Assembly (NCBI GenBank): GCA_033398695.1
Contig: CM065801.1
Span: 53,330,358-53,394,357 of the forward strand
Direction of reading: 5' to 3'
Length of the DNA stretch: 64,000 nt
Source of the DNA: Orobanche coerulescens
Lineage: Eukaryota > Streptophyta > Magnoliopsida > Lamiales > Orobanchaceae
In this document: piece by piece, positions 1-62,830 of the stretch
Layout of the letters: every line of letters begins with the position of its first letter
How positions within the stretch are numbered: the first letter of the stretch is position 1
Position numbers and translations under genes: made by a program
Notes under the pieces: model-generated
The model's database searches: none
The model's input: the letters and a program-made list of their open reading frames with translations, nothing else
What the model was told of the DNA's origin: nothing

Positions 1-1806
1 GGCGTAAGCGCACGCTTCTGGCCGGGGCCAGCTGCCTTAGCCTTCTTCAGCGATGTAAGCGCTGTGTCGAGTCGGCCAGCGTCTGTGCTCAGGCGGACGA
101 GGTATTCGAGGTTACGGACTCGGTCGGAGATCGGCGGGTAGCGCACGCCATGTCGGTCGTGGCGCGCGCTAACGGCGAGGTAGCGCCGCTGCGGCCGACT
201 AGCGTCGCTCTGGGACGAGTTGTCGATCCGGTGGCTCTTGGGCCAGTCGGCTAGCGCGAGCTTCCGGCCGTAGCGCCACGCTAGCGAGTCGGCGGTCGAG
301 TCACGGTCGGCGATTTGGTCGGTGGTGCGGTTAAATGCGGGCCATGGCGGGTGTGCTCGGCCGTCTTTGGCGATAAGCGCACGCTAGGCGGGAAGGCTAG
401 CGCACGCTAGTTCGCCCGATATAAAAATGACAGACCGGCGACTTTCTCGTCATTTTCATTTCATTTCTCTTGATGCGGTGGGGTTTCGGAGGAGACGAAA
501 CCATGTTGTTGAACAACAAATCCATGAAGTTCTTGGGGTTATATCGTTGATCAATCATCCTATAACATCCTTCGATCCAAATAATCAAGGTTAGATCTTT
601 AGAACCCTACTTTTGGGTAGATTTGGGGATTTTCGCGTTTTGTCGATTCGTTCCGTTTTGTCGATTAATTCATGATGAATATGATTAATCTTGTTGGTAT
701 TCTTAGTTTCCCTACGGATTCATGGTATATTTCGTGATTTTTACGGAATCGAGAGGGTTTTGGTTGTGGTCGCCCTCGTTGTTGTTTATATACGAATATA
801 CATGAATCGTAGGCGGGTTTTCAGTGTATTCCAATTCCATATTCATTTAGAAATGGTTGTGATTGTATTCTTCGAATCGTTAGGTTCGGTTTCATTGGTT
901 CTAGCGTTCGTCGGTGACTTCCTTTCCGTTCGTTGCGTAAATCGATAATTCAAGGCAAGTATTTTGGAAACCTTTAAGCTTAACATGAAATGGTGATGTA
1001 TATTACTTGTGTGTAACTCACCTCGTGTTGGCCAGACGGGGTCAAGGAGGGAAATCTATCTTTGCCCGGATTTCACGAGTTTGTTTAGCTAGCTTGATGC
1101 GGGAGGGTCCTTAGAGGCCTCGTGCGGGAATCTATGATATTACTCTGTTCCCAAGGCGATGCATGTGCGTGTTTTGTTTTTAATGTAGCCGGTCTGGGAG
1201 GGTCCTTAGAGGCCTCGTGCGGGAATCTATGATATTACTCTGTTCCCAAGGCAAATTATTTGTTTGTTTAGGAAAAAGACATGTCTTGTTTTGGTTTTGA
1301 AATGATATTGGTGCATGTACTATGAAATGTGTAGCGATTGGTTTGCCTTGAATACTTGTACTAGCGTAAGTGCTAACCCCTTTGGGGAGGCGTTGTCGGG
1401 AAATTCTTGTTATGGATTTCGTGTTATGTTCGGCCAGAGACGAGCGGGCTGGATGGTACGAGGATGTTGGCCAAGGTTGTTGACATGTGCAATTGAGTCT
1501 TGTTATTTCCTACTGTCTCTTTTGATGTGGATGTTTTCCAAATTGTAAACTTATAGATTGTACTCGCGAGTACTTAGGCTTTTCTTTTCGGATTGTGTTT
1601 GGACTTCTTGGAGTTACTGTATTTGTCGGTTGATGTTTATTATGCCGGTTGTACCGGACGTGTTGTTTTATGTTCTTGTTGTTAATAGTTGTTTCCTTGC
1701 TGACCGAGATGGTTAGTCGAGTGGTGTTTTATTGTGTTAGCCTGGTGGGTCCCATGTAGGGGTCCACGGCGCTGTAATACACCTCGAATATCTTGGGGAT
1801 GTTACA
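1..1806 (+). repeat. Partial LTR of a Ty3-type retrotransposon (3' LTR or solo LTR)
   Basis: The left edge is cut by the window. It ends with the block shared by other LTRs here: TGGTGGGTCCC, GGGGTCCACGG, CTGTAATA, then GATGTTACA at 1798-1806. The following sequence has no initiator-tRNA primer site, so this is a 3' or solo LTR rather than a 5' LTR. A TATA-like TATAAAAA lies at 420-427, preceded by CpG-rich palindromes. About 710-900 is clearly homologous to 63160-63340 of the LTR at the right end of the window. Two near-identical 95-bp-period units start at 1101 and 1196, and the GCTAACCCC/GGGG hairpin lies at 1372-1390. Confidence 0.8.
139..427 (+). promoter_or_regulatory. U3 palindrome cluster and TATA box of the partial LTR
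   Basis: Imperfect copies of the 12-mer TAGCGYRCGCTA start near 139, 160, 181, 200, 252, 271 and 398, and the last is 22 bp upstream of TATAAAAA at 420. The first four are spaced 19-21 bp apart. Most copies are degenerate compared with those in LTR-RT1 and LTR-RT3. The position just upstream of TATA suggests an enhancer array, by inference from layout only. Confidence 0.6.
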
Positions 1807-12751: not shown

Positions 12752-15160
12752 TGTAATACCCGGTTGTAATTCAGTCATTATCATTCAGTATTTATCATTC
12801 AATAATTGTCACCCAGTATTTTTCACTCATTTATGATCATTTGTCACTCATATTCAATCATTGTATTCATCGTTCAGAGTAATTGTATCGTCATTCATCA
12901 TCAATCTAGTTGGAGAATCGTGCGGTATTTACCATCGTTATCATTTCATAGTGTGCTGTGTGTGAGGAGTAGCGCACGCTACGTACTCTCTTTAGCGTGC
13001 GCTAATTGAATACTGGTAGCGCACGCCACCTCTCAACACTAGCGCACGCTAGTGTAGTTGAGCAAGCAGTCCAGAAGGCACTGGACTGCAGTTGGGATTG
13101 TAGGTAGCGCACGCTACGAATGGTAAGTAGCGCGCGCTAGTGAGCCGGAGTAGCGCACGCTATGCAGTCAGTGTAGCGCGCGCTAAGGTCGGATCAGGTT
13201 GAGTCCAGTGGCTACTGGACTGAATTGAATTTATTCATAGCGCACGCTAAGAGTGGTTTTTAGTGTACGCAAATGGTGTAGTAGCGCACGCTAATCGTTG
13301 GTTGTAGCGCACGCTACCGAGATCGAATCGAGGACGAAGGTTACGGACTCCATCTCGGGCATCAGATAATTCGTTAGCGCACGCTAACATTTTGGGGTTA
13401 GCGCACGCTAAGTGCATAGCCGTAGCGCACGCTACAAAAAGGTACGTAGCGCGCGCTACCGTTTCCGGACAGTGGGTACTGGACTACCCAAAATACCCAT
13501 TAGCGCACGCTACGCTCAAGAGCTAGCGCACGCTAAACTGGAGTGACTATAAATAGGACAATGCATTCCATTTCGTCATTTCTTCATCTCACTTCACTCC
13601 TTCGGCGGTTTTGGGCGATTTCGGGTGATTTGGAGAGTATTCTTCGAGGTGTAATCATCAATCATCATCTTCAAGCTCATCATTCGGATTAATCATCATT
13701 TCATCATCTTCATCACATCAAATCAAAGGTATTAATCTCTTGGATCTAGGAACTCGGACTTTTGGGTTTTCCTTCCGATTTTCTTCGTTTAAGCTTGGAT
13801 TGTTGTTGGAATATGTTAGATATGGATTATCTATCTTGGATAAATATATTCCTACGGATTTATTGGCTATTTTGGGGATTTATATCAAGAACCCTTGGGA
13901 TTGACTTCGGTTAATTTGGGGATTTCCGATTGACGTTGTTGTAATATTGAATTGTGGATTCCTATGGGATTATTGATATCATTGAAAGTGTTTTGATGGT
14001 TTGAAATACTCATCTTGGAGTTGGTTTCGATATATTCGAGTTTGGATATTGTTGTATCGACGTTTGAGTCGGTTATGATCGTATTTGATTCGCGTAATGA
14101 TCGAATTATTGGTAATTGTGTTATTCAAGGTTGTTCGAGCGACCGACATTTCATTTAGGACGTTGTTCGTGGACGGACATTCTTCATCGGTGTTGTGTAA
14201 GTTAATTCTTACTCAGTTAAAAGGATATTCATTCCTTTCGTTATTGTTCATTCATAATCATAATTCATTCATAAAGCACTAACCGTATTGAAACTTGTAA
14301 TTATCACTTCATTACTTTATTCACGAGGAACGACGGTTTCAATTATTTCATTGAGCTATCATTCATTTCACTGTCATTTCATCTCGGTGAGTCATTATTG
14401 ATTTTGATGTCACTTTTGTTATATCGTGGCATTCCGGGTCGCACTGGCATGCCGGTTGGTATGTGTAGGATTTTCATGTCGGGCACATTTAAGTCGTGTG
14501 TTGGTTGGTGGCCTCACATTGGACTGTGCACACGAGTTGATGGCTTCGCGAGACTGATTAGGTACAAGACCACACGTGTATTCGATCGATACTCGTTGGT
14601 GGCTTGTACACGGACACATTTCCATCCCGGACGTAGTGTGGCGCCATTCCTTTGAGCCATACCGTTAGTTGATTCATATAGCATGTTTGATTGCGTATGT
14701 TTCGACAAGATATTTCATAACTTCAGATATATCATGATTGTGTATTTTCAACCCTTGAGGATTGTTGTTCTGTGTAACTGACCCCGTTGGGGGATATTGT
14801 TTTTCAGGTCATGGAAAAGCAAAAGCACGGGGAGAGCACGTCGACGGAGAGGAGTCCCAATGATACTAGTAGGGGGCCCAGTCTTTTCAGTCATTTATGT
14901 TTTCTTCATTTATTCCGCTGCAGACATTCCGCTTGAATACTCATTTCACTCAGTGTTGTATATTTTGTCTCCATATAAAATATACATGTATTCTGTATTA
15001 TCCTGGGTGTGTTGTATGAAACTCCTCATCGGAGTAATTGATGTTGTAATGTGGTTCGGTACTACATTTACCCTGTGTAATTCATTCATTTTCATTCGCC
15101 TGGTGGGTCCCAGTCGGGGGTCCACGGCACTGTAATATCTGCCTAGTTTGGGGTGTTACA
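12752..15160 (+). repeat. LTR-RT1 5' LTR
   Basis: It starts TGTAATACCCGG and ends TTTGGGGTGTTACA. U3 holds 18 palindromic 12-mers (12970-13535) and a TATA box (TATAAATA, 13548-13555). The downstream part holds the GACCCC/GGGGG hairpin (14780-14793) and the U5 block GGTGGGTCCC / GGGGTCCACGG. Confidence 0.95.
12970..13555 (+). promoter_or_regulatory. LTR-RT1 U3: quartets of 12-bp palindromes leading to a TATA box
   Basis: Copies of TAGCGYRCGCTA start at 12970, 12993, 13017, 13040; 13105, 13128, 13151, 13174; 13238, 13261, 13282, 13305; 13375, 13399, 13423, 13447; 13501, 13524. Within groups the spacing is 21-24 bp, and groups repeat every 126-137 bp. The last copy is 24 bp upstream of TATAAATA (13548), so TATA sits in phase. 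At least two inter-group spacers hold an inverted repeat of the form AGTCCAG-N6-CTGGACT (13067-13088, 13202-13221). The role as an enhancer is inferred from position. The same array is at 19787-20353 in the 3' LTR. Confidence 0.85.
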
Positions 15161-15164
15161 GAGT

Positions 15165-19567: not shown

Positions 19568-21971
19568 TGTAATACCCGGTTGTAAATCAGTCATTATCAT
19601 TCAGTATTTATCATTCAGTAATTGTCACCCAGTATTTTTCACTCATTTATGATCATTTGTCACTCATATTCAATCATTGTATTCATCGTTCAAAGTAATT
19701 GTATTGTCATTCATCATCAATCTAGTTGGAGAATCATGCGGTGTTTACCATCGTTGTCATTTCATAGTGTGCTGTGTGTGAGGAGTAGCGCACGCTACGT
19801 ACTCTCTTTAGCATGCGCTAATTGAGTACTGGTAGCGCACGCCACCTCTCAACACTAGCGCACGCTAGTGTAGTTGAGCAGGCACTCCAGAAGGCACTGG
19901 ACTGCAGTTGGGATTGTAGGTAGCGCACGCTACGAATGGTAAGTAGCGCGCACTAGTGAGCCGGAGTAGCGCACGCTATGCAGTCGGTGTAGCGCGCGCT
20001 AAGGTCGGATCAGGTTGAGTCCAGTGGCTACTGGACTGAATTGAATTTATTCATAGCGCACGCTAAGAGTGGTTTTTAGCGTACGCAAATGGTGTAGTAG
20101 CGCACGCTAATCGTTGGTTGTAGCGCACGCTACCGAGATCGAATCGAGAGGACGAAAGTTACGGACTCCGATCGGGCATTAGATAATTCGTTAGCGCACG
20201 CTAACATTTTGGGGTTAGCGCACGCTAAGTGCATAGCCATAGTGCACGCTACAAAAAGGTACATAGCGCGCGCTATCGTTTCCGGACAGTGGGTACTGGA
20301 CTACCCAAAATACCCGTTAGCGCACGCTACGCACAAGAGCTAGCGCACGCTAAACTGGAGTGACTATAAATAGGACAGTGCAGCCATTTCGTCATTTCTT
20401 CATCTCACTTCACTCCTTCGGCGGTTTTGGGCGATTTCGGGCGATTTGGAGAGTATTCTTTTAGGTGTAATCATCAATCATCATCTTCAAGCTCATCATT
20501 CGGATTAATCATCATTTCATTATCTTCATCACATCAAATCAAAGGTATTAATCTCTTGGATGTAGGAACTCGGATTTTTGGGTTTTCCTTTCGATTTTCT
20601 TCGTGTAAGCTTGGATTGTTGTTGGAATATGTTAGATATGGATTATCTATCTTGGATAAATATATTCCTACGGATTTAATGGCTATTTTGGGGATTTATA
20701 TCAAGAACCCTTGGGTTGACTTCGGTTAATTTGGGGATTTCCGATTGACGTTGTTGTAATCTTGAATTGTGGATTCCTATGGGATTATTGATATCATTGA
20801 AAGTGTTTTGATGGTTTGAAATACTCATCTTGGAGTTGGTTTCGATATATTCGAGTTTGGATATTGTTGTATCAACGTTTGAGTCGGTTATGATCATATT
20901 TGATTCGCGTAATGATCGAATTATTGGTAATTATGTTATTCAAGGTTGTTCGAGCGACCGGCATTTCATTTAGGACGTTATTCGTGGACGGACATTCTTC
21001 ATCGGTGTTGTGTAAGTTAATTCTTACTCAGTTAAAAGGATATTCATTCCTTTCGTTGTTGTTCATTCATAATCATAATTCATTCATAAAGCACTAACCG
21101 TATTGAAACTTGTAATTGTCACTTCATTACTTCATTCGAGGAGCAGCGGTTCCAATTATTTCATTGAGCTATCATTCATTTCACTGTCATTTCATCTTGG
21201 TGAGTCATTATTGATTTTGATGTCACTTTTGTTATATCGTGGCATTCCGGGTCGCACTGGCGTGCCGGTTGGTATGTGTAGGATTTTCACGTCGGGCACA
21301 TTTAAGTCGTGTGTTGGTTGGTGGCCTCACATTGGACTGTGCACACGAGTTGATGGCTTCGTGAGACTGATTAGGTACAAGACCACACGTGTATTCGATC
21401 GATACTAGTTGGTGGCTTGTACACGGACACATTTCCATCCCGGACGTAGTGTGGCGCCATTCCTTTGAGCCATACCGTTAGTTGATTCATATAGCATGTT
21501 TGATTGCGTATGTTTCGATAGGATATTTCATAACTTCAGATATATCATGATTGTGTATTTTCAACACTTGAGGATTGTTGTTACGTATGGCGGCCCGTTG
21601 GGGATATTGTTTTTCAGGTCATGGCAAAGCAAAAGCACGGGGAGAGCACGTCGACGGCGAGGAGTCCCAATGATACTCGTAGGGGGCCCCAGTCTTTTCA
21701 GTCATTTATGTTTTCTTCATTTATTCCGCTGCAGACATTCCGCTTGAATACTCATTTCACTCAGTGTGGTATATTTTATCTCCATATAAAATATACATGT
21801 ATTCTGTATTATCCTGGGTGTGCTGTATGAAACTCCTCATCGGAGTAATTAATATTGTAATGTGGTTCGGTACTACATTTATCCTGTGTAATTCATTCAT
21901 TTTCATTCGTCTGGTGGGTCCCAGTCGGGGGTCCACGGTACTGTAATATCCGCCTAGTTTGGGGTGTTACA
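19568..21971 (+). repeat. LTR-RT1 3' LTR
   Basis: Nearly identical to 12752-15160 throughout, including the U3 palindrome array (19787-20353) and TATA box. Differences are scattered transitions plus a local cluster at about 21580-21600, where CTG triplets of the 5' copy appear as CG. Confidence 0.95.
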
Positions 21972-22165
21972 GCAGCCGCACTGGGGGAGTTTTATCCCTC
22001 CAATGTGGGGGATAGCTCCTTGTGGGCACCAGGCACTGTTCCTCCCACCTAGTGGACCGTTGAGTCACCATGATTTAATTCCTCCACCAACCCCTGTCGG
22101 GCCGGGGGGGTGGGGGCCCCGGGGGCGAGGGATTTCGCCTTTTTTCTACAAGGATTTGATCATTC

Positions 22166-24630: not shown

Positions 24631-27113
24631 GGATTGCATTTGGTTTTGGGCTTTTGGGGCTGCTGTTTGCGAACACTGGGCTTCGTTTCCTTGGAGGATA
24701 TCGTGCGGTTTTGAGGACGTGGATATTTTTTGTTGGAGGTATATGGTGCTCTCTTTTTTAGTGTTTAATTTAGTGATATAGGTTTTCTTCAGTGTTGTTT
24801 GATTGTTTTCGGTCTGCTTTTTTCCCATAGATTGTTGAGGTTGATTATTGAAAAGAGGTTGCCGGTTTTAAAATAGGTTTTCGTGGGAATTTGGCAGAGG
24901 TTGCTATTAGTTGTTTGGTTGAAATCTTGTTTCTTTGCTGTTTTGGTAAATCGGTTTCTTTGCTGTATTCTTCGCCGACTTCTGTTTCTTATCTTTTTCG
25001 CTCCGATTAGGAGTGTCATTAATTTTTGGTTTTGATTGCTATTTTCTCTCGGCCTTTGTTTTTTGGTCAGTACTTATTTTTGCTCTTATTTTACTGGTTT
25101 TTGATTTCAGTGGGTTTGTTTTTTTTGGGCAGCTATTCGGCTCGCGTTTATTTTTGGGTTTATTCGCCGCTGTTAGTGAACATTGTATGTGGTTTGTTTT
25201 GGATGATGCGTTGTGCTTTTCAGCAACCGGACCTTACTTGTTAAAGGCTGGTGGTTCTTTATTGTTTTCTTTTTTGCATAGTATTTTCGTGTCGTTGGTT
25301 CAGAGCTTTCTGTTTTGCATTTTTCTTGACTTTAGTTTCTTTGAGTGTGGTTTGTTTGTTTTGATGGTGTTTTATTCCATATTTCTTTATGAAGGTATCA
25401 TAGTTGTTAAATATCGCGATACGCGATACGTATCGGCGATACGATACGCGATACGTATAGTGTCGATATGTATCACATGGGAATATCGATTTCCTCCTCC
25501 GTATCGCGCGTATCGTACGTATCGCGTATCGTATCATAAATATTGCTGATACGGCCGATACGTAATATCTGTAATAAGGTATGGTAGTCTTCCTATTTTG
25601 GATACCAATCTTGCGTCTCTGTAATCATATTAATAAGCTCAGACTTCTTTTGGCAGAGGAACACTTCAAGAATAAGTTGGTGCTTCCTCTAGGCAAGTTG
25701 CAATATATTAGTTCAATTTTCTCGAAGTTGAAGTTTCGATTCCTCTGTGTTATGAATTGTAGTAGTTATTATAATAGCTTTGTGTTGAAGGAAAATCCCT
25801 CACAATATGCCGCAAGTGCACGGTGTCAACAAGTAATAAAGTGATAAGTAAAGTATCGTTCCCTCGAGGACTGATTTCACTAAGTACCAAAATTTAGTCA
25901 ACTCACAATTTTATTTGAAGAACAATTAAATAGAGTTTATATCTAAACTAATTGCAGAAAGTAAATAATAGTACTAATAATAATAAAAATAATACTAATA
26001 AGGGGTAGGATATTGATTTTCACCTCAAACAATCGGGAATGATATTTATTCGATTCAATTCACTGTTATTTAATTGATTGTAAGCCAGGAATTCCTAAAT
26101 TATTCTAAAGCCTTTCCAAAGGTCGATAGATAATACTACGAATTACTAACTCGATATATCCCTATTCGAATCGGATAATTAATAGCTAAAGCAGTTCAAG
26201 AATTCCCCTGATAACGAGCTTACAATTCGCATGAGTATATCCCTATCTCACGAACATGATGATTCGTCTAAGAAGAACTATGCCTAAATTTCATCTCCGA
26301 ATCCATAAAGACATTCAAAACAAATTAAGCATTGGTAGACAATTAAAAAGCATTAAGAACAGTAAGAAGAATCCAATTCAATAGAATAACGAGTAAATCG
26401 AAATAATAATAAATAATCAAACCGTCATGAAATTGGCTACAATCAAAATCCTACGCGAATAGATCAAAAAAAACTAAGATGCAGAAAAACTGTAGGGATC
26501 AGTGGTCTTGTCGTCGCCCCACAAATCTCCTCCTTGTGTTCCCCTTGATTACTTCACGCCGACCACCTCCCCATACTCCTCCTTTTTGTGCCTTTTTATA
26601 TCATTCTTTTCTCCCCCCATTAGGTTTTTCTTCTCCAGGAAAATAAAATCCTCCTCACGTAAAGCTCCTCTCGGCACAACACCCCAAGGCAATGGTCAGC
26701 GGCCCAAAAGCTGAAGGAAAATCAGCACACCAAAAGCCCACCAAAAGAAAATACCCTGCGGCCCAAATTTCATCTCCTCATTTCATCTCCCGCGGCCCAA
26801 AGCAAATTCAGCATACTTACTGGCAGTGGCGTCTTTTTTTGCGCTTTCTGTGCCACTTTCGGCTGGTGTGTCTTGCGGCACATGATCTGATGTCTTGTCA
26901 TTCGTTGGTTGTCTTCGTGTCTGCGGTTCGGCAGTGTGTCTGCATGTTCATGACAATCGCTATTTTTTACTTTATTTTTCATCGTTTTGGCTTCCGGACT
27001 CCGATTTCCTGCAAAACATATAAAAATAATGCATTAAAAGCTCATTTATGCTGATTTAGGCTCAAGATGGATATATATTAATGATATAAAAGCGCATAAA
27101 AATACGCCTAACA
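24631..27113 (-). repeat. LTR-RT4 3' LTR (left copy)
   Basis: It matches 29513-31977 almost base for base, with small indels. It contains a TCG-rich palindrome island at 25411-25567 and the segment with CGCAAGTGCACGGTGTCAAC and 'gttccctcgagga' seen in many plant LTRs. The left border is where the two copies stop matching. Confidence 0.85.
25411..25567. repeat. GATACG palindrome island in LTR-RT4 LTR
   Basis: A dense run of overlapping 'tatcgcgata', 'gatacgcgatacg' and 'cgtatcgtacg' strings in otherwise T-rich DNA. The other LTR has the same island at 30285-30418 with about 24 bp fewer. It may be an old insertion or a regulatory cluster. Confidence 0.6.
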
Positions 27114-27126
27114 AATACCCCCAAAC
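27114..27126 (-). other. LTR-RT4 polypurine tract
   Basis: On the minus strand GTTTGGGGGTATT directly precedes the LTR start TGTTAGGCG. Confidence 0.75.
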
Positions 27127-27539
27127 TTGAGCCTTTGCTTGTCCTCAAGCAAAAAATTATAATTTTAAACAAAATGTATCGTGAATAATCATGCAAATTC
27201 ATAGTGCTAAACTTAATCAATACTATCCTGAAAATCTCAAAGAATAATACAAGTATCGTAATAGTGAGTCACGTCCCGGACACTGATTCCACAAAGTAAC
27301 CAATTTCAGTCCTAATCAATCGTTCAAGAAGAAAATCAAGCTCAAAGATTAACAAGCGTGAATTTAACCCACCGTCAATATGAAGGGTTAGATTAAACAA
27401 GCCAATTCGCCCCGTCCCACAGTCTAGTGGAAAAATTCAAGAGTTTCATTATCAAAATTACACCTAGGACAGCATTCCCTTATGTATGATCAATAATATG
27501 ATTCGAGTTAACCACTAGGTTTCGGTTCTCGGGATATTT

Positions 27540-27870
27540 CATCGGGATGATCCTAGGGTGGATTTCCATTCTCATGTATCGGGGAATCGTTTGACGTAAA
27601 AGACACTCATGGGGCACATGGATGCTTCTAGTTACTAAGCCCCCCTCTACAGCGGAGAAAAAACTCGAATAGCAAGTCTCGCATGTCAAGGTTGCTGTTT
27701 TACGCGAGAGTAAACAATGGGTCACGTGAATACCCCCGGTTACTAGGCTTCCCATCATCGGTAATGCGATATTTCTAAATTATTAATCTATTCAGGGTCG
27801 TCGTTTTACGCGAGAGTAAACAACGGGTCACGTGAATACCCCCGGTTACTAAACTTCCCATCATAGAACA
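27540..27870. repeat. Three-copy tandem repeat in LTR-RT4 internal region
   Basis: TTTTACGCGAGAGTAAACAA, then GGGTCACGTGAATACCCCC and 'ggttactaa' recur at about 27698 and 27802. A more diverged unit starts near 27588. The period is 104-110 bp, and the segment is non-coding. Confidence 0.75.
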
Positions 27871-28666
27871 AATAGTATCTCGACTTTTTCTTGGGAAAAA
27901 CTGTCCGACTCTAAACTCAATTTAAGTGCCCACGAGACTTATGTTATTGGACGATTAGCTACGCGAAAAGTTTAACCAAACGTATAAACGGTGATTTGAA
28001 AACACGTATGTCTCCTTTCTTATCTGCTAAAATTTCTACAAAAACGATAAAATTTCGGACCTAATTGAATACTCAACAGAAACAGATATCGCTGATTGCA
28101 ACTCGACTAAAACTCAACCGTTTCTTCCAAGAGAAATCAGTATCGTAACATCAGTTTTACACACGGGAGCACGAAAAATTCATGAAAAATTCAAGCTTGC
28201 AAAAACCATCAACAGCATGCAAAATAAAGTCCACTACACATAACATTATCAATAATAAAACTCATGTGAAAATAAAAGAGATAAGGAAAAGTGAAACTTA
28301 TTCCAAATGTCTTCTTGAACACCCGCACATGTCTGAGTGGAAATGTCGGTCAATCCATACTTCAAATAACGCCCAACATCACGAGGGACCCCCAAACTTA
28401 GTCTCTAGTCATGAGATAACAATAGACATTAAATCAAGAAAGACTAGAATATGAAGAATAATAACTCATAGGGGTTATAAAGAAATATCAGAGAAATAAG
28501 GGCCAACAAGAATACACGAATCCAAACGAAATACAAAACAAAGAAAAGAAAAATTATTAACGAAAAATCAAATAAAAACAACTAACTAGAAAGCAAGTAA
28601 AAATGATGGGTTGCCTCCCATTCAGCGCTCTATTTTACGTCTTGAGCACGACGTGGCGAAAAAAAT

Positions 28667-29344
28667 TTAACGTGGCTTCTTTCTAGGGAGATTGCCAAAT
28701 GCCCCCTTCTTGCAATCTATAAGCCTCTTATTCCATAGGGGAGGCTTTGGCTCATGCCCGGTTGCCAAAAATAATGAATAAGAATAATTATGCGGACAAC
28801 CAAAAAATGATGGAAGAATATAATAATGATAAGGCATGAAAAAATAAGCAGAGTTCGAATGGGCAAATAATACAGAATTATCATGCATAACCTCATTAGA
28901 ACTCGAAGAATCAGCCTCAACAAAATCATGAGTAATGGGGTCAATCTCTCCCATTATGGATTTAGGAAAAATTATGCGTGGCACCGTTAATAAAATTTTT
29001 GGCACAAAAGTGTTCACCTTATTAGTCGAAGTTTGATGACAATTTAATGGAATTACTTTGGAAACATCATCAATGGTAACTTCTTCTACAGGCTCATCAC
29101 ACTTTATGAAATTATTAGGTGCTGAGGGATCGACCCTAAAACTCAACATGTTATTCTTCTCAACCTCCCCCTCAACTTCACTACTAAATATATGAGCTGG
29201 AAAATAACCGTAGTGAACCTCAAGACCACGACGTGCACATTCTAGCTCAAAAAGGGTACTATCAGGATTTTTAAGAACGTCTACACATTGTTCAAGCATG
29301 GTCTTTTGTTTTGGGGGAGGGGGCTGACTGACCCTATTTGGCAA
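28667..29344 (-). CDS. 225-aa ORF of unknown function in LTR-RT4 (gag position)
   Basis: The open frame starts 147 bp downstream of the tRNA-Asp primer site on the same strand, where gag normally lies. The protein begins MPNRVSQPPPPKQ, then has an acidic middle (EVEGEVE, EPVEEVTIDDV) and an aromatic Tyr/Phe/His-rich stretch (residues about 165-195). It ends in a basic tail (NLPRKKPR). No zinc knuckle, Gag core, signal peptide or catalytic motif is visible. It could be a conserved ORF carried by non-autonomous elements, a captured gene piece, or a chance survival. I do not recognise it. Confidence 0.5.
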   Translation of the reverse strand: MPNRVSQPPPPKQKTMLEQCVDVLKNPDSTLFELECARRGLEVHYGYFPAHIFSSEVEGEVEKNNMLSFRVDPSAPNNFIKCDEPVEEVTIDDVSKVIPLNCHQTSTNKVNTFVPKILLTVPRIIFPKSIMGEIDPITHDFVEADSSSSNEVMHDNSVLFAHSNSAYFFMPYHYYILPSFFGCPHNYSYSLFLATGHEPKPPLWNKRLIDCKKGAFGNLPRKKPR

Positions 29345-29490
29345 ATTATTAAGAACATCGGAATTTATGAAATGTCAAGGGCCACGATACTCAAAGGAAA
29401 ACATAAAAAAAAAATAAAAATATAAAAACTAAAGAAGAAACTTCAAATTAAAATTAGAGTCGCTTGGTATTGATATTAGCGAAAAATCAG

Positions 29491-29508
29491 TCCCCGGCAA
29501 CGGTGCCA
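29491..29508 (-). other. LTR-RT4 primer binding site (tRNA-Asp type)
   Basis: The plus strand reads TCCCCGGCAACGGTGCCA. Its reverse complement TGGCACCGTTGCCGGGGA matches the 3' end of plant tRNA-Asp except one base. Asp tRNA priming is known for Athila-like and some related plant Ty3 elements. Confidence 0.85.
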
Positions 29509-29512
29509 AAAC

Positions 29513-31977
29513 GGATTGCATTTGGTTTTGGGATTTTGGGGCTGCTGTTTGCGAACACTGGGCTTCGTTTCCTTGGAGGATATCGTGCGGTTTTGAGGAC
29601 GTGGATATTTTTTGTTGGAGGTATATGGTTCTCTCTTTTTTAGTGTTTAATTTAGTGATATAGGTTTTCTTCAGTGTTGTTTGATTGTTTTCGGTCTGAT
29701 TTTTTCCCATAGATTTGTTGAGGTTGATTATGCTGCCGGTTTTAAAATAGGTTTTCGTGGGAATTTGGCAGAGGTTGCTATTAGTTGTTTGGTTGAAATC
29801 TTGTTTCTTTGTTGTTTTGGTAAATCGGTTTCTTTGCTGTATTCTTCGCCGACTTCTGTTTCTTATCTTTTTCGCTCCGATTAGGAGTGTCACTAATTTT
29901 TGGTTTTGATTGCTCTTTTCTCTCGGCCTTTGTTTTTTGGTCAGTACTTATTTTTGCTCTTATTTTTCTGGTTTTTGATTTCAGTGGGTTTGTTTTTTTT
30001 GGGCAGCTATTCGGCTCGCGTTTATTTTTGGGTTTATTCGCCGCTGTTAGTGAACATTGTATGTGGTTTGTTTTGGATGATGAGTTGTGCTTTTCAGCAA
30101 CCGGACCTTACTTGTTAAAGGCTGGTGGTTCTTTATTGTTTTCTTTTTTGCATAGTATTTTCGTGTCGTTGGTTCAGAGCTTTCTGTTTTGCATTTTTCT
30201 TGACTTTAGTTTCTTTGAGTGTGGTTTGTTTGTTTTGATTGTGTTTTATTCCATATTTCTTTATGAAGGTATCATAGTTGTTAAATATCGCGATACGCGA
30301 TACGTATAGTGTCGATACGTATCGCATGGGAATATCGATTTCCTCCTCCGTATCGCGCGTATCGTATGTATCGCGTATCGTATCATAAATATCGCCGATA
30401 CGGCCGATACGTAATATCTGTAATAAGGTATGGTAGTCTTCCTATTTTGGATACCAATCTTGCGTCTCTGTAATCATATTAATAAGCTCAGACTTCTTTT
30501 GGCAGAGGAACACTTCAAGAATAAGTTGGTGCTTCCTCTAGGCAAGTTGCAATATATTAGAAGTTCAATTTTCTCGAAGTTGAAGTTTCGATTCCTCTGT
30601 GTTATGAATTGTAGTAGTTATTATAATAGCTTTGTATTGAAGGAAAATCCCTCACAATATGCCGCAAGTGCACGGTGTCAACAAGTAATAAAGTGATAAG
30701 TAAAGTATCGTTCCCTCGAGGACTAATTTCACTAAGTACCAAAATTTAGTCAACTCACAATTTTATTTGAAGAACAATTAAATAGAGTTTATATCTAAAC
30801 TAATTGCAGAAAGTAAATAATAGTACTAATAATAATAAAAATAATACAAATAAGGGGTAGGATATTGATTTTCACCTCAAACAATCGGGAATGATATTTA
30901 TTCGATTCAATTCACTGTTATTCAATTGATTGTAAGCCAGGAATTCCTAAATTATTCTAAAGCCTTTCCCAAGGTCGATTGAAAATACTACGAATTACTA
31001 ACTCGATATATCCCTATTCGAATCAGATAATTAATAGCTAAAACAGTTCAAGAATTCCCACAATAACAGGCTTCACAATTCGCATGAGTATATCCATATC
31101 TCACGAAAATTATGATTCGTCTAACAAGAACTATGCCTAAATTTCATCTCCCGAATCCATAAAGACATTCAAAACAAATTAACTGTTGGCTAGACAATTA
31201 AAAAGCATTAAGAACAGTAAGAAGAATCCAATTCAATAGAATAACGAGTAAATCGAAATAATAATAAATAATCAAACCGTCATGAAATTGGCTACAATCA
31301 AAATCCTACGCGAATAGATAAAAAAAAAACTAAGATGCAGAAAAACCGTAGGGATCCGTGGTCTTGTCGTCGCCCCACAAATCTCCTCCTTGTGTTCCCC
31401 TTGATTACTTCACGCCGACCACCTCCCCCATACTCCTCCTTTTTGTGCCTTTTTATATCATTCTTTTCTCCCCCCCAGTAGGTTTTTCTTCTCCAGGAAA
31501 ATAAAATCCTCCTCACGTAAAGCTCCTCTCGGCACAACACCCCAAGGCAATGGTCAGCGGCCCAAAAGCTGATGTAAGGAAAATCAGCACACCAAAAGCC
31601 CACCAAAAGAAAATACCCTGCGGCCCAAATTTTATCTCCTCATTTCATCTCCCGCGGCCCAAAGCAAATTCAGCATACTTACTGGCAATGGCGTCTTTTT
31701 GCGCTTTTCTGCCATGCTCACTTGGTGTGTCTTGCGGCACACTGATCTGATGTCTGCATCATTATTGGTTGTCTTCGTGTGCCGCGGTTCACTTGGTGTG
31801 TGTCGCGGCTCATGACCAAAAACTGCTATTTTTGCCCGTTTTTCATTGTTTTGGCTTCCGGAGTCCGATTTCCTGCAAAACATATAAAAATATTGCATTA
31901 AAAGCTCATTTATGCTGATTTAGGCTCAAGATGGATATAAATTAATGATATAAAAGCGCATAAAAATACGCCTAACA
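29513..31977 (-). repeat. LTR-RT4 5' LTR (right copy)
   Basis: Same sequence as 24631-27113 with small indels, ending CGCCTAACA on the plus strand. The outer boundary is followed by CTTTG. Confidence 0.85.
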
Positions 31978-33985: not shown

Positions 33986-36003
33986 TGTAACACCCCCAAG
34001 TTATTCAGGGTATATTACAGCGCCGTGAGCCCCGCCGTGGGACACACAAGGCTAAACATACACGGACTATAAAACTTGACCGAGAAGGTCTACATATAAT
34101 GAGAAGAAAGACGATACAAAGGTATTCAAAAACATAACCAATGTATTCACAGACATTACATCACAAGTCAATACTTCGGCAAACACAGGCCGGAACTTCA
34201 AGGAAAGAGGAAAAACAATACTCGAGTATTCAATAACCAATCCAGTACAACAACACTGAATGGAAAGTTCAAAACATAACTGGAAGACCAACACAGTATC
34301 ACACTTGCCCACCATCTTCATGCCGACCCGGTACCTGCCTGTCCGATCTTCTGGAACCTGAAATACATGAAAAGTATTTCCCCCATAAAGGGGTTAGCCG
34401 TCGAATAGCTAGTGCAAGTATATCAAGTATGAAACACAATACTCCTCGACAATAAAGTAAATATAATCCGTCAATTCATCAATATAAGTCAATTCATCAA
34501 TTTAAGACTAGTATTCCGGAATAACTAAAATCTCAAGACGTATGTGAATGCCGTAGAAATGGTTCGTTCATATCATACGCCGTTACATGTAGGAATGCCG
34601 TCAAAACGGTTCGTTCATTACATGCCAACATTATTTCATATGAATGCCGTAGAAACGGTTCGTTCATATCAACCATGGAATCGCACCAGAGGCTACGAAA
34701 CCCTCAGAGGACCATAGGCCCGTCCCGGAGTGGCTAGAAATAATCATACCATCAATATTTCATACTTTCAAAGTCGAGAATGTACAATCATAAATGTATA
34801 CTTGCCTTTGAGACATCGAGAAATCGCACGGAGGAAGGGTATGAGTTCGGTAGGTCCAAGAACGCGCTTCCGGCACCTAAACGATTCGCAAGGAGTATGA
34901 TAATTACTCATCCATATTCAAACTACACGAAGGAACTCCCCAAACCCGTCTAAGATTCATAAAGATATGCGGATAATCAACTAAAGGTTGGAAAATCGTT
35001 CTAAATCTCACAAGTCCGAAAACGGCACAATCTAAACCATAAAATCGTAGGAAAGGTATACATACGGTATAGATACATCATAATCTCAAGGTTCTCAAGC
35101 TTCAAAGCGGGTAAAACGGACGAATCTACGAAAAACCCCAAAATTCCCAAAAGGTAGGGTTCTAAGGATTTTTACCTTGATTCGGACGTTTGGAGGAATT
35201 AGATGTTGAGAAATCCTTGTTCTCCAACCAAAAATATTGTTGTTAGAAGGAAGATCGCTTCCAATCGCCTAAGATCGCCTCTCCCGAGTGATTCCCGTCG
35301 AAAAGGAGTGAAGAAGGTGAGAAATGACGAAAATAAAGTCAACTGCCATATTTATAACTGTCCAGTCTAGCGCACGCTACGCCTCCTTCATTAGCGTGCG
35401 CTAGCGAAGTCACCGGATAGTCCAGTGGTTTCTGCCGATTCCGTTAGCGTGCGCTAATCGTCTGTCTCTAGCGTGCGCTAGTCCAAAATGTGGAACTTAC
35501 TGTCTCTGCCACTCGGCCTTAGCGTGCGCTAGCGCTAAGACTTAGCGTGCGCTATTCCATAACTCTAGCGTGCGCTAGCCGGGCTAGCGTACGCTACGAT
35601 AGTCGAGAAAATCTGTAACTTCCGCCTCTGGCGGCCCGGTGGCGTGCGCTACGGACGGGTGTTAGCGTACGCTACTAACCACGAATAGCGCGCGCTAACA
35701 ACCCCTAGCGTGCGTTAATCCGCCCGATCGAGCGATTTGAAATGTTGGTTCGACTGACCGATCTTCTTAGCGCGCTACGGCTCAAAGCTTAGCGTGCGTT
35801 AATCAGCAGAATTAGCGTGCGTTAGCTAGGCCTAACGTCGTTATATCTCCGGTCGAACATTTCCGCAAGGTCCTAAACGACATGATCAACAACTAAACGA
35901 GATGCGAAACTCAAAAACAATATCAACAACATCTCCAAGCATTTACAGAGTGTTAACACAAGAGAAACGGCAAGGTCAAATAACGAAAAGTACGGGTATT
36001 ACA
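33986..36003 (-). repeat. LTR-RT2 3' LTR
   Basis: On the minus strand it starts TGTAATACCCGTAC and ends GGGGGTGTTACA. Palindromic 12-mers occupy 35368-35845, the minus-strand TATA (TATAAATA) is at 35349-35356 and the hairpin at 34380-34398. Three units of a 48-bp repeat containing GAATGCCGT lie at 34546-34672. Confidence 0.93.
35349..35845 (-). promoter_or_regulatory. LTR-RT2 U3 palindrome groups and TATA box
   Basis: Plus-strand starts of the 12-mers are 35368, 35392; 35445, 35469; 35520, 35543, 35566, 35585; 35640, 35663, 35686, 35706; and about 35768, 35790, 35811, 35833. Groups of two or four use about 23-bp spacing. The nearest lies 23 bp from TATA on the minus strand. A spacer contains AGTCCAGTGG, as in LTR-RT1. 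The second LTR has the same set at 42201-42710, and there several copies damaged here are intact. Confidence 0.8.
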
Positions 36004-40839: not shown

Positions 40840-42876
40840 CGTAACACCCCAAGTTATTCGGGGTATATTACGGCGCCGTGAGCCCCGCCGTGGGACACAC
40901 ACAAGGCTAAACATACACGGACTATAAAACTTGACCGAGAAGGTCTACATATAATGAGAAGAAAGACGATACAAAGGTATTCAAAAACATAACCAATGTA
41001 TTCACAGACATTACATCACAAGTCAATACTTCGGCAAACACAGGCCGGAACTTCAAGGAAAGAGGAAAAACAATACTCGAGTATTCAATAACCAATCCAA
41101 GACAACAACACCGAATGGAAAGTTCAAAACATAATGGAAGACCAACACAAGATCACACTTGCCCACCATCTTCATGCCGACCCGGTACTGCTGTCCGATC
41201 TTCTGGAACCTGAAATACATGAAAAGTATTTCCCCCATAAAGGGGTTAGCCGTCGAATAGCTAGTGCAAGTATATCAAGTATGAAACACAATACTCCTCG
41301 ACAATAAAGTAAATATAATCCGTCAATTCATCAATATAAGTCAATTCATCAATTTAAGACTAGTATTCCGGAATAACTAAAATCTCAAGACGTATGTGAA
41401 TGCCGTAGAAACGGTTCGTTCATATCATACGCCGTTACATGTAGGAATGCCGTCAAAACGGTTCGTTCATTACATGCCAACATTATTTCATATGAATGCC
41501 GTAGAAACGGTTCGTTCATATCAACCATGGAATCGCACTGCAGGCTACGAAACCCTCAGAGGACCATAGGCCCGTCCCGGAGTGGCTAGAAATAATCATA
41601 CCATCAATATTTCATACTTTCAAAGTCGAGAACGTACAATCATAAATGTATACTTGCCTTTGAGACATCGAGAAATCGCACGGAGGAAGGGTATGAGTTC
41701 GGTAGGTCCAAGAACGCGCTTCCGGCACCTAAACGATTCGCAAGGAGTATGATAATTACTCATCCATATTCAAACTACACGAAGGAACTCCCCAAACCCG
41801 TCTAAGATTCATAAAGATATGCGGATAATCAACTAAAGGTTGGAAAATCGTTCTAAATCTCACAAGTCCGAAAACGGCACAATCTAAACCATAAAATCGT
41901 AGGAAAGGTATACATACGGTATAGATACATCATAATCTCAAGGTTCTCAAGCTTCAAAGCGGGTAAAATGGACGAATCTACGAAAAACCCCAAAATTCCC
42001 AAAAGGTAGGGTTCTAAGGATTTTTACCTTGATTCGGACGTTTGGAGGAATTAGATGTTGAGAAATCCTTGTTCTCCAACCAAAAATATTGTTGTTAGAA
42101 GGAAGATCGCTTCCAATCGCCTAAGATCGCCTCTCCCGAGTGATTCCCGTCGAAAAGGAGTGAAGAAGGTGAGAAATGACGAAAATAAAGTCAACTGCCA
42201 TATTTATAATCGTCCGGTCTAGCGCACGCTACGCCTCCTTCATTAGCGTGCGCTAGCGAAGTCACCGGATAGTCCAGTGGTTTCCGCCGATTCCGTTAGC
42301 GTGCGCTAATCGTCTGTCTCTAGCGTGCGCTAGTCCAAAATGTGGAACTTACTGTCTCTGCCCTGCTCAGCACTTAGCGTGCGCTAGCGCTAAGACTTAG
42401 CGTGCGCTATTCCATAACTCTAGCGTGCGCTAGCCGGCCTAGCGTCGCTACCGATAGTCCGTAAAATCTGTAACTTCATCGCCTCTGGCCGGCCCGGTGG
42501 CGTGCGCTAAGGACGGGTGTTAGCGTACGCTACTAACCACGAATAGCGCGCGCTAACAACCCCTAGCGTGCGTTAATCCGCCAGTCCAGAGAGCAGTTTG
42601 AAATGTTGGTTCTGACCTGACTGATCTTCTTAGCGCGCGCTACGGCTCAAAGCTTAGCGTGCGTTAATCAGGCAGAATTAGCGTGCGTTAGCCTAGGCCT
42701 AGCGTGCGTTATATCTCCGGTCCAGAACATTTCCGCAAGGTCCTAAACGACATGATCAACAACTAAACGAGATGCGAAACTCAAAAACAATATCAACAAC
42801 ATCTCCAAGCATTTACAGAGTGTTAACACAAGAGAAACGGCAAGGTCAAATAGTCAAAAAATGTACGGGTATTACA
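40840..42876 (-). repeat. LTR-RT2 5' LTR
   Basis: Near-identical to 33986-36003, but it keeps more intact 12-mers (for example near 42381, 42630, 42654) and CAG/CTG triplets. Its internal-side end reads TGTTACG instead of TGTTACA. Confidence 0.93.
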
Positions 42877-45716: not shown

Positions 45717-45721
45717 ATTTA

Positions 45722-48036
45722 TGTAATACCCGAGATTTCTGTTATGTAATTGGAACTTGTGATATTGTAATAATTGTACTTTTGTATGAGTACTATTCTC
45801 CGTATTTCATAATCCGATGCCGTCGAGCATATAATTTCGTGTATGTGATTTAAATGGTTGAAATTCTGTGCATGTAGCGCACGCTACAGGCTACGGGTAG
45901 CGTACGCTAGCATGGTTTCATAGCGTACGCTACCGAGTGTAGTTAGCGCACGCTACGCGTGGTCAAATTGATTGAGACGCGCGGTAGGTGAGATCTGGCC
46001 GGGGGACCCTTGTCGGATCCTGTCGAATGTATCTGGACGGCTTTCGGGAAAAGCCGAGTCAACGCCTTAGCGCACGCTAGAGGTCTATGCGTAGCGCACG
46101 CTAAGTGCCGAGTACAGATAGATCGTGAGCCGTTAGCGCACGCTACGGACAGTGTATAGCGCGCGCTAATAGCCATTTATTATAAATAGGACAGCATCCT
46201 ATTCGTGAATTCAGTCCTTTCTTCCCCCATAACCCGAACTCTTGCACTTGAAACATAACTCCATTCGTCTTAAACACTCCATATCAACCTCCTAGTTCGA
46301 GATTGAAGATCTTATATCATTGGAGATTGGTGTTCAAGCCTTGGGTGTTGGATTGCTTCATTTTCATCCGTGTTCTTCACTACTTTGAGGTAGGTGATTC
46401 TTCACCAATGATTAGTAATGTTCATGAGGAAGTTTGAATCATGTTTGGATAGCTAGTATCTCGTTTTTATCGATCATCACATGTTAGAAGGATACTTTTG
46501 ATGTATCGGTACTAGATGTCGAATGAACCTTTGAACCATCTTATTATAAGGACTCCTAAGCATGTTTAAATCGATTTATGATCAAGTGATCGGATATTAC
46601 CCAGTTGATACGTTGTATACGTTGGAATCATGTGTTTTGGAACGTAAGACGATGGAACTTAGATTATTTCTTGAAGATCGTAGAGGAATTGTGATATCGA
46701 GATAACTATCCGTATATTGGTGTTTCATAATCATAAATCTTCCGAAACCTTATTAGCATGATATGCCCGAGGATAACTTGTAATATCACCATAGGGTTCA
46801 TGAGTTCTTCATCATTCAACCCAGCTTTCGGTTCGTAGTATTCGCCATGCAAGATTAGCGCACGCTAACATGTGTGAGTTAACGTGCGCTATCGAGGTTC
46901 GTTTTCGCCGCACGTCGTAGCGTACGTTATGAGGCGGCCGAGCTGGCCGATTGTGGCTAGCGACGCTAGTCTTATACGATAGCGTCGCTATGATTGACTT
47001 AGCGCCGCGTTACGTATAATACGTAGCGCGCTAAGTATTCCAGCACTTGTTTAGTTTGAGCTTTTCGCCGTAGGTCGAATTGTTAGGCCATTGTTCGACT
47101 CGAGATGATTTGTATATCGTTCCTTTTGTTAAGGTTCGAGCTTGTTACGTTGATCGGAGGCGGCCTTCGAGTGCGTCGAGAGCATTGAAGTATATCATTC
47201 TTGCCATCTTCGAGGCAAGTATCGTGATATGTTAATATCGGTATTTTGGAGTATACGTATGATTATGCATGTTGTTGAACATGATATTTACTTCGTTGAT
47301 TTGTCATGATATTCGTTGTATATTGTTTATATGTTCATGTTGATGAACATAATGATTTGGCATATGTGTATGCATGAGTTGTGTTTGTATACGTTGTACG
47401 ATCTATGCCGAGGGCGCTGGATCGGATGTCCACCTCGTGTTGGTCCGACGGGATCATCTTGGGATCTAGGCTGAGGGCGCTGGATCATTGGACGGGTTAT
47501 TTCCACCTCGTGTTGGTCCGACGGGATCATCTTGGGATCTATCTTTGAGGGCTGGATCATTGGAATACCCATGTTTGTGTAATGGAATCTTGTAGATTCG
47601 CATTGTCGGGTTCCTAGCGGAAGCCCGTGTGATATGTCTTGTTGTGTATTGTTGATGCATATTCGAATTGTTTAAATATGATACTTGTACTAGCATTGTT
47701 TTGCTAACCCCTTCGGGGTGGACATTTGTTTTGATGTTCGGGTAGCTAAGGAGCAGGGAAAGCGACCAGATCTGACGTGACGGCGAAGGGCTCGTGATGT
47801 TTATTGTTATTGGAGATTTGTTGTCTTGGTTTGGTTTCGTACTCGAGTACGTGTGTCCTTTGATATTAATTCGATATGGTTGTATTAATTACCCGTTGAA
47901 CCGGTTATGCGTTTTCATAAACTCGAATCTTCGCAGATTGACGCCTTATTTTCACTTTCCTTTTTAATTAGCCTTGTAAATCCTTATTTAAAGGGTTTAC
48001 GGCGCTGTAATTATTCCGAATATCTCGGGTGTTACG
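45722..48036 (+). repeat. LTR-RT3 5' LTR
   Basis: It starts TGTAATACCCGAG. U3 12-mers start at 45875, 45898, 45921, 45944 and 46068, 46092, 46134, 46157, with TATAAATA at 46181. A second, partly eroded 12-mer set lies at 46858-47035. A 65-bp-period repeat containing CCACCTCGTGTTGGTCCGAC is at about 47404-47575. The hairpin GCTAACCCCTTCGGGGTG is at 47703-47720. It ends GTTACG rather than GTTACA. Confidence 0.93.
45875..46188 (+). promoter_or_regulatory. LTR-RT3 U3 palindrome quartet and TATA box
   Basis: Four perfectly 23-bp-spaced copies (TAGCGCACGCTA, then TAGCGTACGCTA twice, then TAGCGCACGCTA) start at 45875. Four more start at 46068-46157, the last 24 bp upstream of TATAAATA at 46181. The 3' LTR repeats this at 53043-53112 and 53236-53326, with TATA at 53350. 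Confidence 0.85.
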
Positions 48037-52854: not shown

Positions 52855-52889
52855 GTTTCGGGACGAAACTTCTTCTTAGGGAGGAAGGA

Positions 52890-62084: not shown

Positions 62085-62296
62085 AGTTCTGGCCGTAAGG
62101 TGCGATTCTGGCCGTAATGTGTGCGATTACGGCCGTAAGGCGTGGTCGGGTATGGCCGTATGGCGCTGGCGGCTTCTGACGAAGGCCGATTCTGGCCGTA
62201 ATGTGTGCGATTACGGCCGTAAGTGTCCTGGCAGTCTTTGGCGATTTTTGACAAATGCCGGTTACGGCCATAAGGCCTGCCGAGTACGGCTGTAAG
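62085..62296 (+). promoter_or_regulatory. LTR U3 array of TTACGGCCGTAA palindromes
   Basis: GGCC centres are at 62091, 62110, 62131 and 62154, then at 62194 and 62215, then at 62265. Spacing is 19-23 bp. Perfect (TTACGGCCGTAA) and half-changed (CTGGCCGTAA, TATGGCCGTA) forms alternate. The role is inferred from resemblance to the arrays of other LTRs. Confidence 0.7.
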
Positions 62297-62548: not shown

Positions 62549-62830
62549 GGGCCGCGGCACAAGGTGCGTGCGCCGCGGCACACAAATTTCTCCAAATGTT
62601 GGTCGAGCGATGCATGCGTGTGCCGCGGCACACCTATCCGTGCCGCGGCACGGTGCCGAGGCAGTGCCGCGGCACACTGTCCGTGCCGCGGCACACTCGT
62701 GTGTCTTCTGCGACCAAAACCCGATGCCGTGTGCCGCGGCACACGCGCGGTATCTTGCGCGGCACAACGCCAAAACCTGGGAGTAGATTTTCGGTCTGTG
62801 CCGCGGCACACTTGTGCTGTGCCGCGGCAC
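62549..62830 (+). promoter_or_regulatory. LTR U3 array of GTGCCGCGGCAC palindromes
   Basis: CCGCGG centres start at 62552, 62573; 62623, 62643, 62667, 62686; 62734, (62757 damaged); 62801, 62822. Spacing is 19-24 bp inside groups and 44-50 bp between groups. Long open frames on both strands here come from the repeats, not from a gene. No canonical TATA follows. The nearest AT-rich string is TTTATTAG at 62858. Confidence 0.75.

Follow-up and report, generated by a model that had tools for sequence, protein, structure and literature searches.

Why should a 12-bp near-palindrome, TAGCGYRCGCTA, recur dozens of times at nearly constant steps in retrotransposon long terminal repeats (LTRs), and why should the last copy of an array so often stand at an almost fixed distance from a TATA box? 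The question is raised by a 64,000-nucleotide stretch of the Orobanche coerulescens genome (assembly GCA_033398695.1, contig CM065801.1, positions 53,330,358 to 53,394,357; hereafter the window), in which a preliminary description had proposed an enhancer-like code of palindromes in quartets at 23-bp steps, phased with the TATA box. The motif arrays are confirmed here, and we find a constrained, TATA-phased cis-module common to LTR families that cannot be aligned with one another over the arrays, whereas binding on one DNA face and a general super-period, also proposed, do not hold.

Self-comparison of the window reveals four pairs of long direct repeats, labelled RT1, RTA, RT2 and RT3, to which a partial LTR is added (Table 1). 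Exact TAGCGYRCGCTA sites number 70, whereas none arises in 100 dinucleotide shuffles; all of them lie inside the LTRs of RT1, RT2, RT3 and the partial LTR, and 66 of the 70 are upstream of a TATA box, so within the window the motif is confined to LTRs, and nearly always ahead of the promoter, as had been predicted; four of the 70 belong to a second, post-TATA cluster in RT3. RTA serves as an internal negative, with no site at up to two mismatches in either repeat. Each LTR of RT1-RT3 carries 8-18 copies (at up to two mismatches) before the TATA box, in arrays that start 155-219 bp into LTRs of 2.0-2.4 kb; their GC content is 0.53-0.67 and their observed/expected CpG ratio 1.37-1.49, the ratio being 1.07-1.50 in the remaining LTR sequence and 1.14 in the window. 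The eighteen copies first reported for the RT1 5' LTR are indeed found at up to two mismatches, but only 16 are exact and two are imperfect; they do stand in four groups of four and a final pair, 21-24 bp apart inside. Start to start, the final RT1 copy (13524) precedes TATAAATA (13548) by 24 bp, the last copy on the minus strand of RT2 precedes its box by 23 bp, and the last copy of the partial LTR (398) precedes position 420 by 22 bp, all as originally given. The RT3 quartet at 45875, 45898, 45921 and 45944 is likewise exact, but the copy adjacent to the TATA box there is the one at 46157 (box 46181), which is not part of the quartet.

Taking one LTR each of RT1, RT2, RT3 and the partial LTR, the 34 steps of up to 34 bp comprise 20 of 23 bp, 10 of 24 bp, three of 21 bp and one of 20 bp; 30 of 34 are thus 23 or 24 bp, a count that random placement, tried 20,000 times, puts at 2.5 on average and at 10 at most. 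From the end of the promoter-side copy to the TATA box there are 12, 11, 12 and 10 bp (RT1, RT2, RT3 and partial LTR, respectively), and from the end of the preceding copy 35, 35, 35 and 33 bp. The same regularity is found across the genome (3,646,015,169 bp in 1279 contigs, counts of repeats being lower bounds), where TAGCGYRCGCTA occurs at 1,309,842 sites and its reversed pattern at 108, and where 268,679 pairs of sites lie exactly 23 bp apart (control 0). TATAWAWA stands 9-13 bp past a CA-centred copy at 26,705 places (13,081 + 13,624; control 0), and among 100 such in-phase matches listed the gap is 11 bp in 47 and 12 bp in 42. In a 190-kb sample (positions 10,000,001-10,010,000 on each of 19 large contigs, themselves 138-237 Mb long) 99 exact copies occur, in 10 of the 19 stretches; of its 40 steps of up to 24 bp, 25 are 23 bp and 10 are 24 bp, so that the 23-bp peak is borne out beyond the window (35 of 40 at 23 or 24 bp). 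Among the 13 sample arrays of at least three copies, eight have TATAWA at 11-12 bp on the side expected from the motif's polarity (see below), and none has it at that distance on the opposite side. Outside plants, searches of prokaryote contigs and of IMG/VR each returned one paired match (Aurantiacibacter and one viral contig, respectively), which we judge to be chance.

Regular spacing could in principle be a relic of duplication. Motif copy identity is 0.925 in RT1, 0.905 in RT2 and 0.892 in RT3, while the 9-base spacers within the same LTRs share 0.251 (n = 13), 0.278 (n = 9) and 0.256 (n = 9) of their bases, the shuffled level being about 0.25; the partial LTR is weaker, with a motif identity of 0.783 and two spacers at 0.444 (shuffle 0.34 ± 0.12). 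In the sample, identity averages 0.272 over 65 spacers of 10-12 bp. With the motif masked, blastn between the families left no array similarity, its matches being three short LTR stretches outside the arrays. Because the spacers of RT1-RT3 are random while their motifs are 0.89-0.93 identical, constraint is likely, more so than recent tandem duplication, and since the masked arrays cannot be aligned between families, it follows that motif, spacing and TATA distance were retained and everything else became random. A 23-bp unit expanding in tandem, neutrally or selfishly, in effect the birth of a functionless satellite in the LTR, would fit the weak 23-bp arrays detected by TRF (Tandem Repeats Finder), and the linker words shared by the 134-bp units of RT1 make a larger segmental duplication probable there. 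Pure tandem duplication is nevertheless rejected in view of random spacers beside near-identical motifs, and the genome-wide TATA phase and runs mostly of two or four also disfavour expansion, which we find barely credible. The 134-bp super-period itself stands for RT1, where it is clear, but fails as a rule across families; among all pairwise distances in the sample, those of 131-134 bp are frequent, as are many others. The RT1 linkers (at 13070, 13204 and about 13465) have in common a second word, TCCAG-N6-CTGGA / TACTGGACT, which accompanies this super-period.

How copies are grouped bears on what might read them. Over 18 arrays (13 from the sample and five from the window, related arrays being counted separately) there are 13 single copies and 59 runs of at least two, namely 27 pairs, three triples, 28 quartets and one run of five. 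In seven of the 18 arrays, picked by eye to represent different families, 25 of the 27 runs of at least two have size two or four (P 0.0004, geometric null). Pairs and quartets with few triples suggest a unit of two sites. The motif, its step, its TATA phase, the random spacers and the genome-wide scale can be read directly from the DNA, as can, for 18 arrays, the pair and quartet sizes; to explain them we favour, as probable, the view that the arrays are promoter-proximal cis-regulatory modules, offering dense putative sites to a protein that recognises the sequence, probably as a dimer, and would pair cooperatively with a neighbour about 23 bp away. A dimer would fill one 12-bp site and pair with that neighbour, a quartet amounting to two pairs; the core-promoter pair, whose copies end 10-12 and 33-35 bp before the TATA box, would help to place the transcription machinery, and the distal quartets may serve as enhancer or open-chromatin units. 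We infer that the arrays lie in U3 (the unique 3' region), that protein binds them cooperatively with an effect on transcription, and that the factor is encoded by the host; a dimeric host factor is plausible. To our knowledge, none of the plant factors with GCG/CGC-rich sites (BZR, FHY3/FAR1, CAMTA, VOZ/NAC) fits the whole 12-mer, and the five papers found to contain one of the four 12-mers are unrelated, their titles concerning EBV (Epstein-Barr virus; three papers), Sox2 and let-7.

Several observations weigh against this explanation, and some of them speak for others. TATAWAWA is far rarer off phase, with 314 places (114 + 200; control 0) 19-23 bp past a CA-centred copy against the 26,705 in phase, but gaps were counted at 9-13 and 19-23 bp, and the latter range falls in the trough between phased copies at about 12 and 35 bp, which makes the contrast a favourable one; judged by eye, the 100 off-phase matches listed consist mostly of TA microsatellites and of boxes that overlap a further copy of the motif. 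The families are related by ancestry, and the genome counts take in many copies of single families. They had been called independent, and their array sequence outside the motifs is indeed unalignable, but pol DNA identity among RT1, RT2 and RT3 is about 69%, and they are therefore not strictly independent, nor are their arrays independent inventions. In five of the 13 sample arrays a box at 11-12 bp is lacking; in two arrays of stretch L028 (copies of one LTR) a box lies 9 bp away on the opposite side, and in one L019 array it lies at 21 bp. Some clusters lack a TATA box, about 680-900 bp downstream in RT3 and L016 and also in L019. Steps of 23-24 bp put neighbouring sites off a common DNA face, 23 bp being 2.19 helical turns at 10.5 bp per turn, and the 69 degrees lost at each step contradict the earlier idea of binding on nearly one face. 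Finally, the motif core in RT1-RT3 and the partial LTR is GCG-YR-CGC, with a centre that is polar on the LTR sense strand: CA 36, CG 9, TA 6 and TG 3 (54 copies at up to two mismatches). A symmetric palindrome would show CA and TG equally often, and a plain homodimer needs no polarity; what had been described as a palindrome is thus a near-palindromic 12-mer with a polar centre, and the bias suggests that the site is not used symmetrically or that polarity was kept by descent. Either an asymmetric complex or inherited polarity would do, and the claim of polarity is itself limited in that the copy nearest the TATA box is frequently CG or TG.

Two further sets of data belong to the same balance. 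For the 601-nucleotide array the folding energy is -264.2 kcal/mol, whereas 20 shuffles average -214.3 (z -9.2), and neighbouring copies are complementary at 10.29 of 12 positions against 10.08 ± 0.11 for shuffled order, about two standard deviations up. This leans slightly towards RNA or DNA secondary structure, in which copies would pair into hairpins in LTR transcripts, for small-RNA silencing, RNA processing or packaging; small RNAs have been linked to the palindromes of maize Sireviruses (PMC10760457). Any set of inverted repeats folds strongly, however, and the fixed TATA distance would be left unexplained. The commonest combination of neighbours, CA with CA, would put two C.A mismatches at its centre; neighbours that are perfectly complementary show no excess (4 of 34, null 2.4, P 0.19); and an arm change, seen in 18 dyad pairs, affects just one side in 17 of them. 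On these pairing data compensatory hairpins are rejected as the main cause, in spite of the raised complementarity between adjacent copies, and secondary structure in general strikes us as quite improbable.

The other set concerns methylation. Between the LTRs of four pairs, CpGs in the motif differ less (7 of 124) than other CpGs (48 of 452), although not significantly so (P 0.12), as might be seen if a host or element-encoded protein kept the LTR unmethylated or insulated, like VANC at VANDAL motifs, any promoter effect being indirect. Dense noncoding arrays with a word that differs by family do resemble VANC targets (PMC5735166), and such an anti-silencing or insulator array would accommodate both the other words that occur in similar clusters and the motif clusters downstream of TATA boxes. 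It has no need of exact TATA phasing, though, and besides the gag/pol pieces RT1-RT3 contain no open reading frame (ORF) of at least 250 amino acids (stop to stop), smaller or spliced genes falling outside that search. Moreover, VANC targets came from tandem repeat formation (PMC5735166), whereas the spacers here are random. We consider an anti-silencing array unlikely, and retain the promoter-proximal module as the preferred explanation.

Of the elements that carry the module, RT1, RT2 and RT3 are of Ty3/gypsy type. Five ORF pieces of RT1-RT3 contain Ty3_capsid, RVP_2, RT_RNaseH followed by Integrase_H2C2, SH3_Tf2-1 and a weak Chromo domain, and thus lack the Ty1/copia protein content by which a Sirevirus would be recognised. 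The RT3 chromodomain (PF00385) is a weak match (E 2.4e-4, 21.4 bits, below the 25.1 cut-off), and none was reported in the scanned ORF pieces of RT1 and RT2. All 21 matches of the RT1 gag ORF come from Orobanche gracilis, hederae or minor; the best named matches of the integrase search, which is less telling, are from Smallanthus, Tanacetum and Dionaea, and of the 120 matches listed out of 8000 scored, one is from Orobanche. A search of IMG/VR for relatives of the integrase gave eight stretches that fit a pattern, none of them confirmed. In several Orobanche genomes, Tekay chromoviruses are reported to account for roughly a tenth of the DNA or more (PMC4381496).

Table 1. Features of the window, with positions counted from its first letter.
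Feature	Position	Strand	Details
RT1 5' LTR	12752..15161	+	96.5% identity to 19568-21972; first letters TGTAATACCC, last GTGTTACAG (blast boundaries)
RT1 3' LTR	19568-21972	+	self-comparison
RT2 5' LTR	40841-42876	-	self-comparison
RT2 3' LTR	33987-36003	-	self-comparison
RT3 5' LTR	45721-48035	+	self-comparison
RT3 3' LTR	52889-55225	+	self-comparison
RTA	24631..31977	+	2.5-kb direct repeat pair 24631-27113, 29513-31977; probably LTRs
Partial LTR	1 to about 520	+	inferred from its own array and TATA box
RT1 5' LTR array	12970..13535	+	16 exact copies, 17 at up to 1 mismatch, 18 at up to 2; runs 4,4,4,4,2
RT1 5' LTR TATA box TATAAATA	13548..13555	+	12 bp past end of final motif copy
RT1 3' LTR array	19786..20352	+	13 exact, 18 at up to 1 mismatch; TATA 20365, gap 12
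RT2 5' LTR array	42220..42711	-	10 exact, 15 at up to 1 mismatch; TATA 42201-42208 minus, gap 11
RT2 3' LTR array	35368..35824	-	10 exact, 14 at up to 1 mismatch; TATA 35349-35356 minus, gap 11
RT3 5' LTR array	45875..46168	+	8 exact, as a quartet with exact 23-bp steps plus two pairs; TATA 46181, gap 12
RT3 3' LTR array	53043..53337	+	8 exact; TATA 53350, gap 12
RT3 5' LTR second cluster	46856..46929	+	about 675-750 bp downstream of TATA start, partly degraded; further degraded copies to about 47033
RT3 3' LTR second cluster	54027..54218	+	about 680-870 bp downstream of TATA; final quartet at 23-bp steps; no TATA directly after
Partial LTR degenerate array	6..409	+	1 exact of 6 at up to 2 mismatches; final two copies end 33 and 10 bp ahead of TATAAAAA (420)
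Second dyad TCCAG-N6-CTGGA	13070..13085	+	linker between RT1 quartets; again at 13204
CACTGGACTATCCGGTG	42263..42279	-	RT2, upstream of TATA; other LTR copy 35411-35427; 2 mismatches from OPIE-2/PREM-2 RM as given in Table 3 of PMC2829016
GTGCCGCGGCAC array	62549..62830	+	7 exact, 10 at up to 2 mismatches; no TATAWAW within 60 bp
TTACGGCCGTAA, two exact sites	62127..62222	+	imperfect copies around; same stretch as GTGCCGCGGCAC array

A few other features of these sequences were noticed. Directly past the TATA box, RT1, RT2 and the partial LTR have TCGTCATTT in common (by eye). L019 2436-3760 holds two motif clusters of mixed polarity, with no TATA box at 11-12 bp, that resemble the downstream clusters of RT3 and L016. 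Differences between paired LTRs of RT2 and RT3 bunch in palindrome-rich stretches (42375-42650 versus 35520-35790 and 46880-47060 versus 54050-54250), as multi-base changes and centre deletions (TAGCGACGCTA, TAGCGTCGCTA), and the RT3 LTR has bunched differences elsewhere too; palindrome instability, gene conversion or assembly error could be the cause. The window also contains an AT-rich, partly self-complementary tandem array with a period of about 172 bp (8268-9273) and six copies of a 97-bp tandem repeat at 93% identity (3521-4099).

Other words are arranged in a comparable way. A dyad scan of sample and window together (254 kb) brought out further clustered words, TTACGGCCGTAA, TTACGTACGTAA, GTGCCGCGGCAC and ACWCGGYCGTGT, at steps of about 18-24 bp and multiples. 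TTACGGCCGTAA has 184,551 genome sites (control 83), and 15 of 22 short steps among the sites listed are 22-23 bp; same-word dyad pairs other than TAGCG, 12-80 bp apart, number 39, of which 14 are at 19-24 bp, and three shuffles gave no such pair at all. Three LTR-like units, each about 1.1 kb long and about 91% identical, follow one another in L015 2146-5508, and each contains eight TTACGGCCGTAA-type copies, forming two quartets with 21-23 bp steps. The ACWCGGYCGTGT arrays at L011 3893-4060 and 8563-8870 flank an ATHILA ORF (PF03078, E 5.7e-27, 6630-8027 minus), with TATAAAG 12 bp from one of them; self-blast of this region showed no LTR pair. In the window, 62050-62830 is LTR-like and carries GTGCCGCGGCAC and TTACGGCCGTAA copies, and further downstream 63068-63389 matches, at 82% identity, 623-939, which lies beyond the TAGCGCACGCTA-using partial LTR; the two are possibly related elements with different words. 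Phasing with a TATA box is weaker for these words. A strict TATAWAW lies within 60 bp at one of the 18 non-TAGCG arrays listed (L011, gap 14), while inspection by eye adds TATAAAC at 13 bp (L024), TATAAAG at 12 bp on the minus strand (L011) and TATTTAA at 10 bp (three L015 arrays) and 18 bp (L019); neither script nor eye found a TATA-like box at the GTGCCGCGGCAC arrays.

These words might be dialects of a genome-wide promoter grammar, in which lineages (chromovirus-like, Athila-associated and others) would keep the geometry and swap the word, their readers being diversifying, related DNA-binding dimers, host or element-encoded, engaged in an arms race like that of VANC and VANDAL. The shared geometry would consist of CG-rich dyads of about 12 bp at steps of about 18-24 bp, in pairs and quartets, with a TATA-like box about 10-14 bp past the last copy, and its vocabulary of TAGCGYRCGCTA and the four words above, one of them with well over a million sites. 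This proposal is weakened because strict TATAWAW is found at 1 of 18 non-TAGCG arrays and no Athila LTR pair is demonstrated; we think it doubtful as it stands, and treat the evidence as a lead, not a survey.

A single 12-bp site occurs some 1.3 million times in this plant genome, and its spacing and promoter distance are regular enough to warrant the term grammar. If a protein reads the site, it would offer a handle on the switching or silencing of a large group of retrotransposons, for which the sites form a natural library of spacing and word variants, and the idea of one LTR-promoter architecture with changeable words across lineages becomes testable.

Clustered sites are known from other mobile elements. 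The Drosophila gypsy insulator consists of clustered sites for the host protein Su(Hw) within an LTR retrotransposon, but it does not lie in the LTR promoter, and its sites are not known to be palindromic or TATA-phased. In Tnt1 and Tto1, repeated U3 boxes control a plant LTR promoter, but in few copies and in another superfamily, and we know of no 23-bp grammar in either. A symmetry of Tnt1 box I is mentioned in PMC2829016. The VANC-binding arrays of VANDAL DNA transposons, based on a 9-base word with a reader encoded by the transposable element and a tandem-repeat origin (PMC5735166), are similar in being dense same-orientation arrays in noncoding DNA, with different motifs in related elements; unlike them, the arrays described here are TATA-phased, a property that the accessible parts of PMC5735166 do not give for VANDAL elements.

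The closest relative is found in plants, contrary to the first impression that no plant LTR module of this kind had been described. LTRs of Sireviruses (Ty1/copia) carry many palindromic RM boxes just upstream of the TATA box (Bousios et al. 2010, PMC2829016), and arrays of sometimes palindromic repeats in cis-regions are known for several families of transposable elements (PMC10760457). RM boxes are near-identical, CG-rich, placed mostly in the upper half of the LTR between diverged flanks and of unproven function; their clusters form CpG islands, their word varies by element, and the remaining Ty1/copia elements of that study are said to lack them (PMC2829016). No closer case emerged from a literature coverage that leaves out most subscription papers, which makes the absence a weak one. 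As in Sireviruses, at least eight palindromic copies cluster in the upper half of the LTRs of RT1-RT3, and a conserved TATA box follows shortly after, at 10-12 bp in RT1-RT3 and the partial LTR and at the in-phase genome sites counted above. Sequences within three mismatches of the OPIE-2/PREM-2 RM box match four times (both strands of the two RT2 LTR copies; expected 0.06). TAGCGYRCGCTA, by contrast, has no CGG-CCG core, the Sirevirus signature, which is contained in TTACGGCCGTAA and ACACGGCCGTGT, other words of this genome, and the host elements are of Ty3/gypsy type. What the available text of PMC2829016 says of RM boxes includes no fixed 23-bp step, pair or quartet rule, polarity or base-pair-exact TATA distance. 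Judged by sequence, the Orobanche arrays are the same kind of module as the Sirevirus RM boxes in another superfamily and with a tighter geometry, extending to Ty3/gypsy elements a feature described as Sirevirus-specific among Ty1/copia and adding geometric rules to it.

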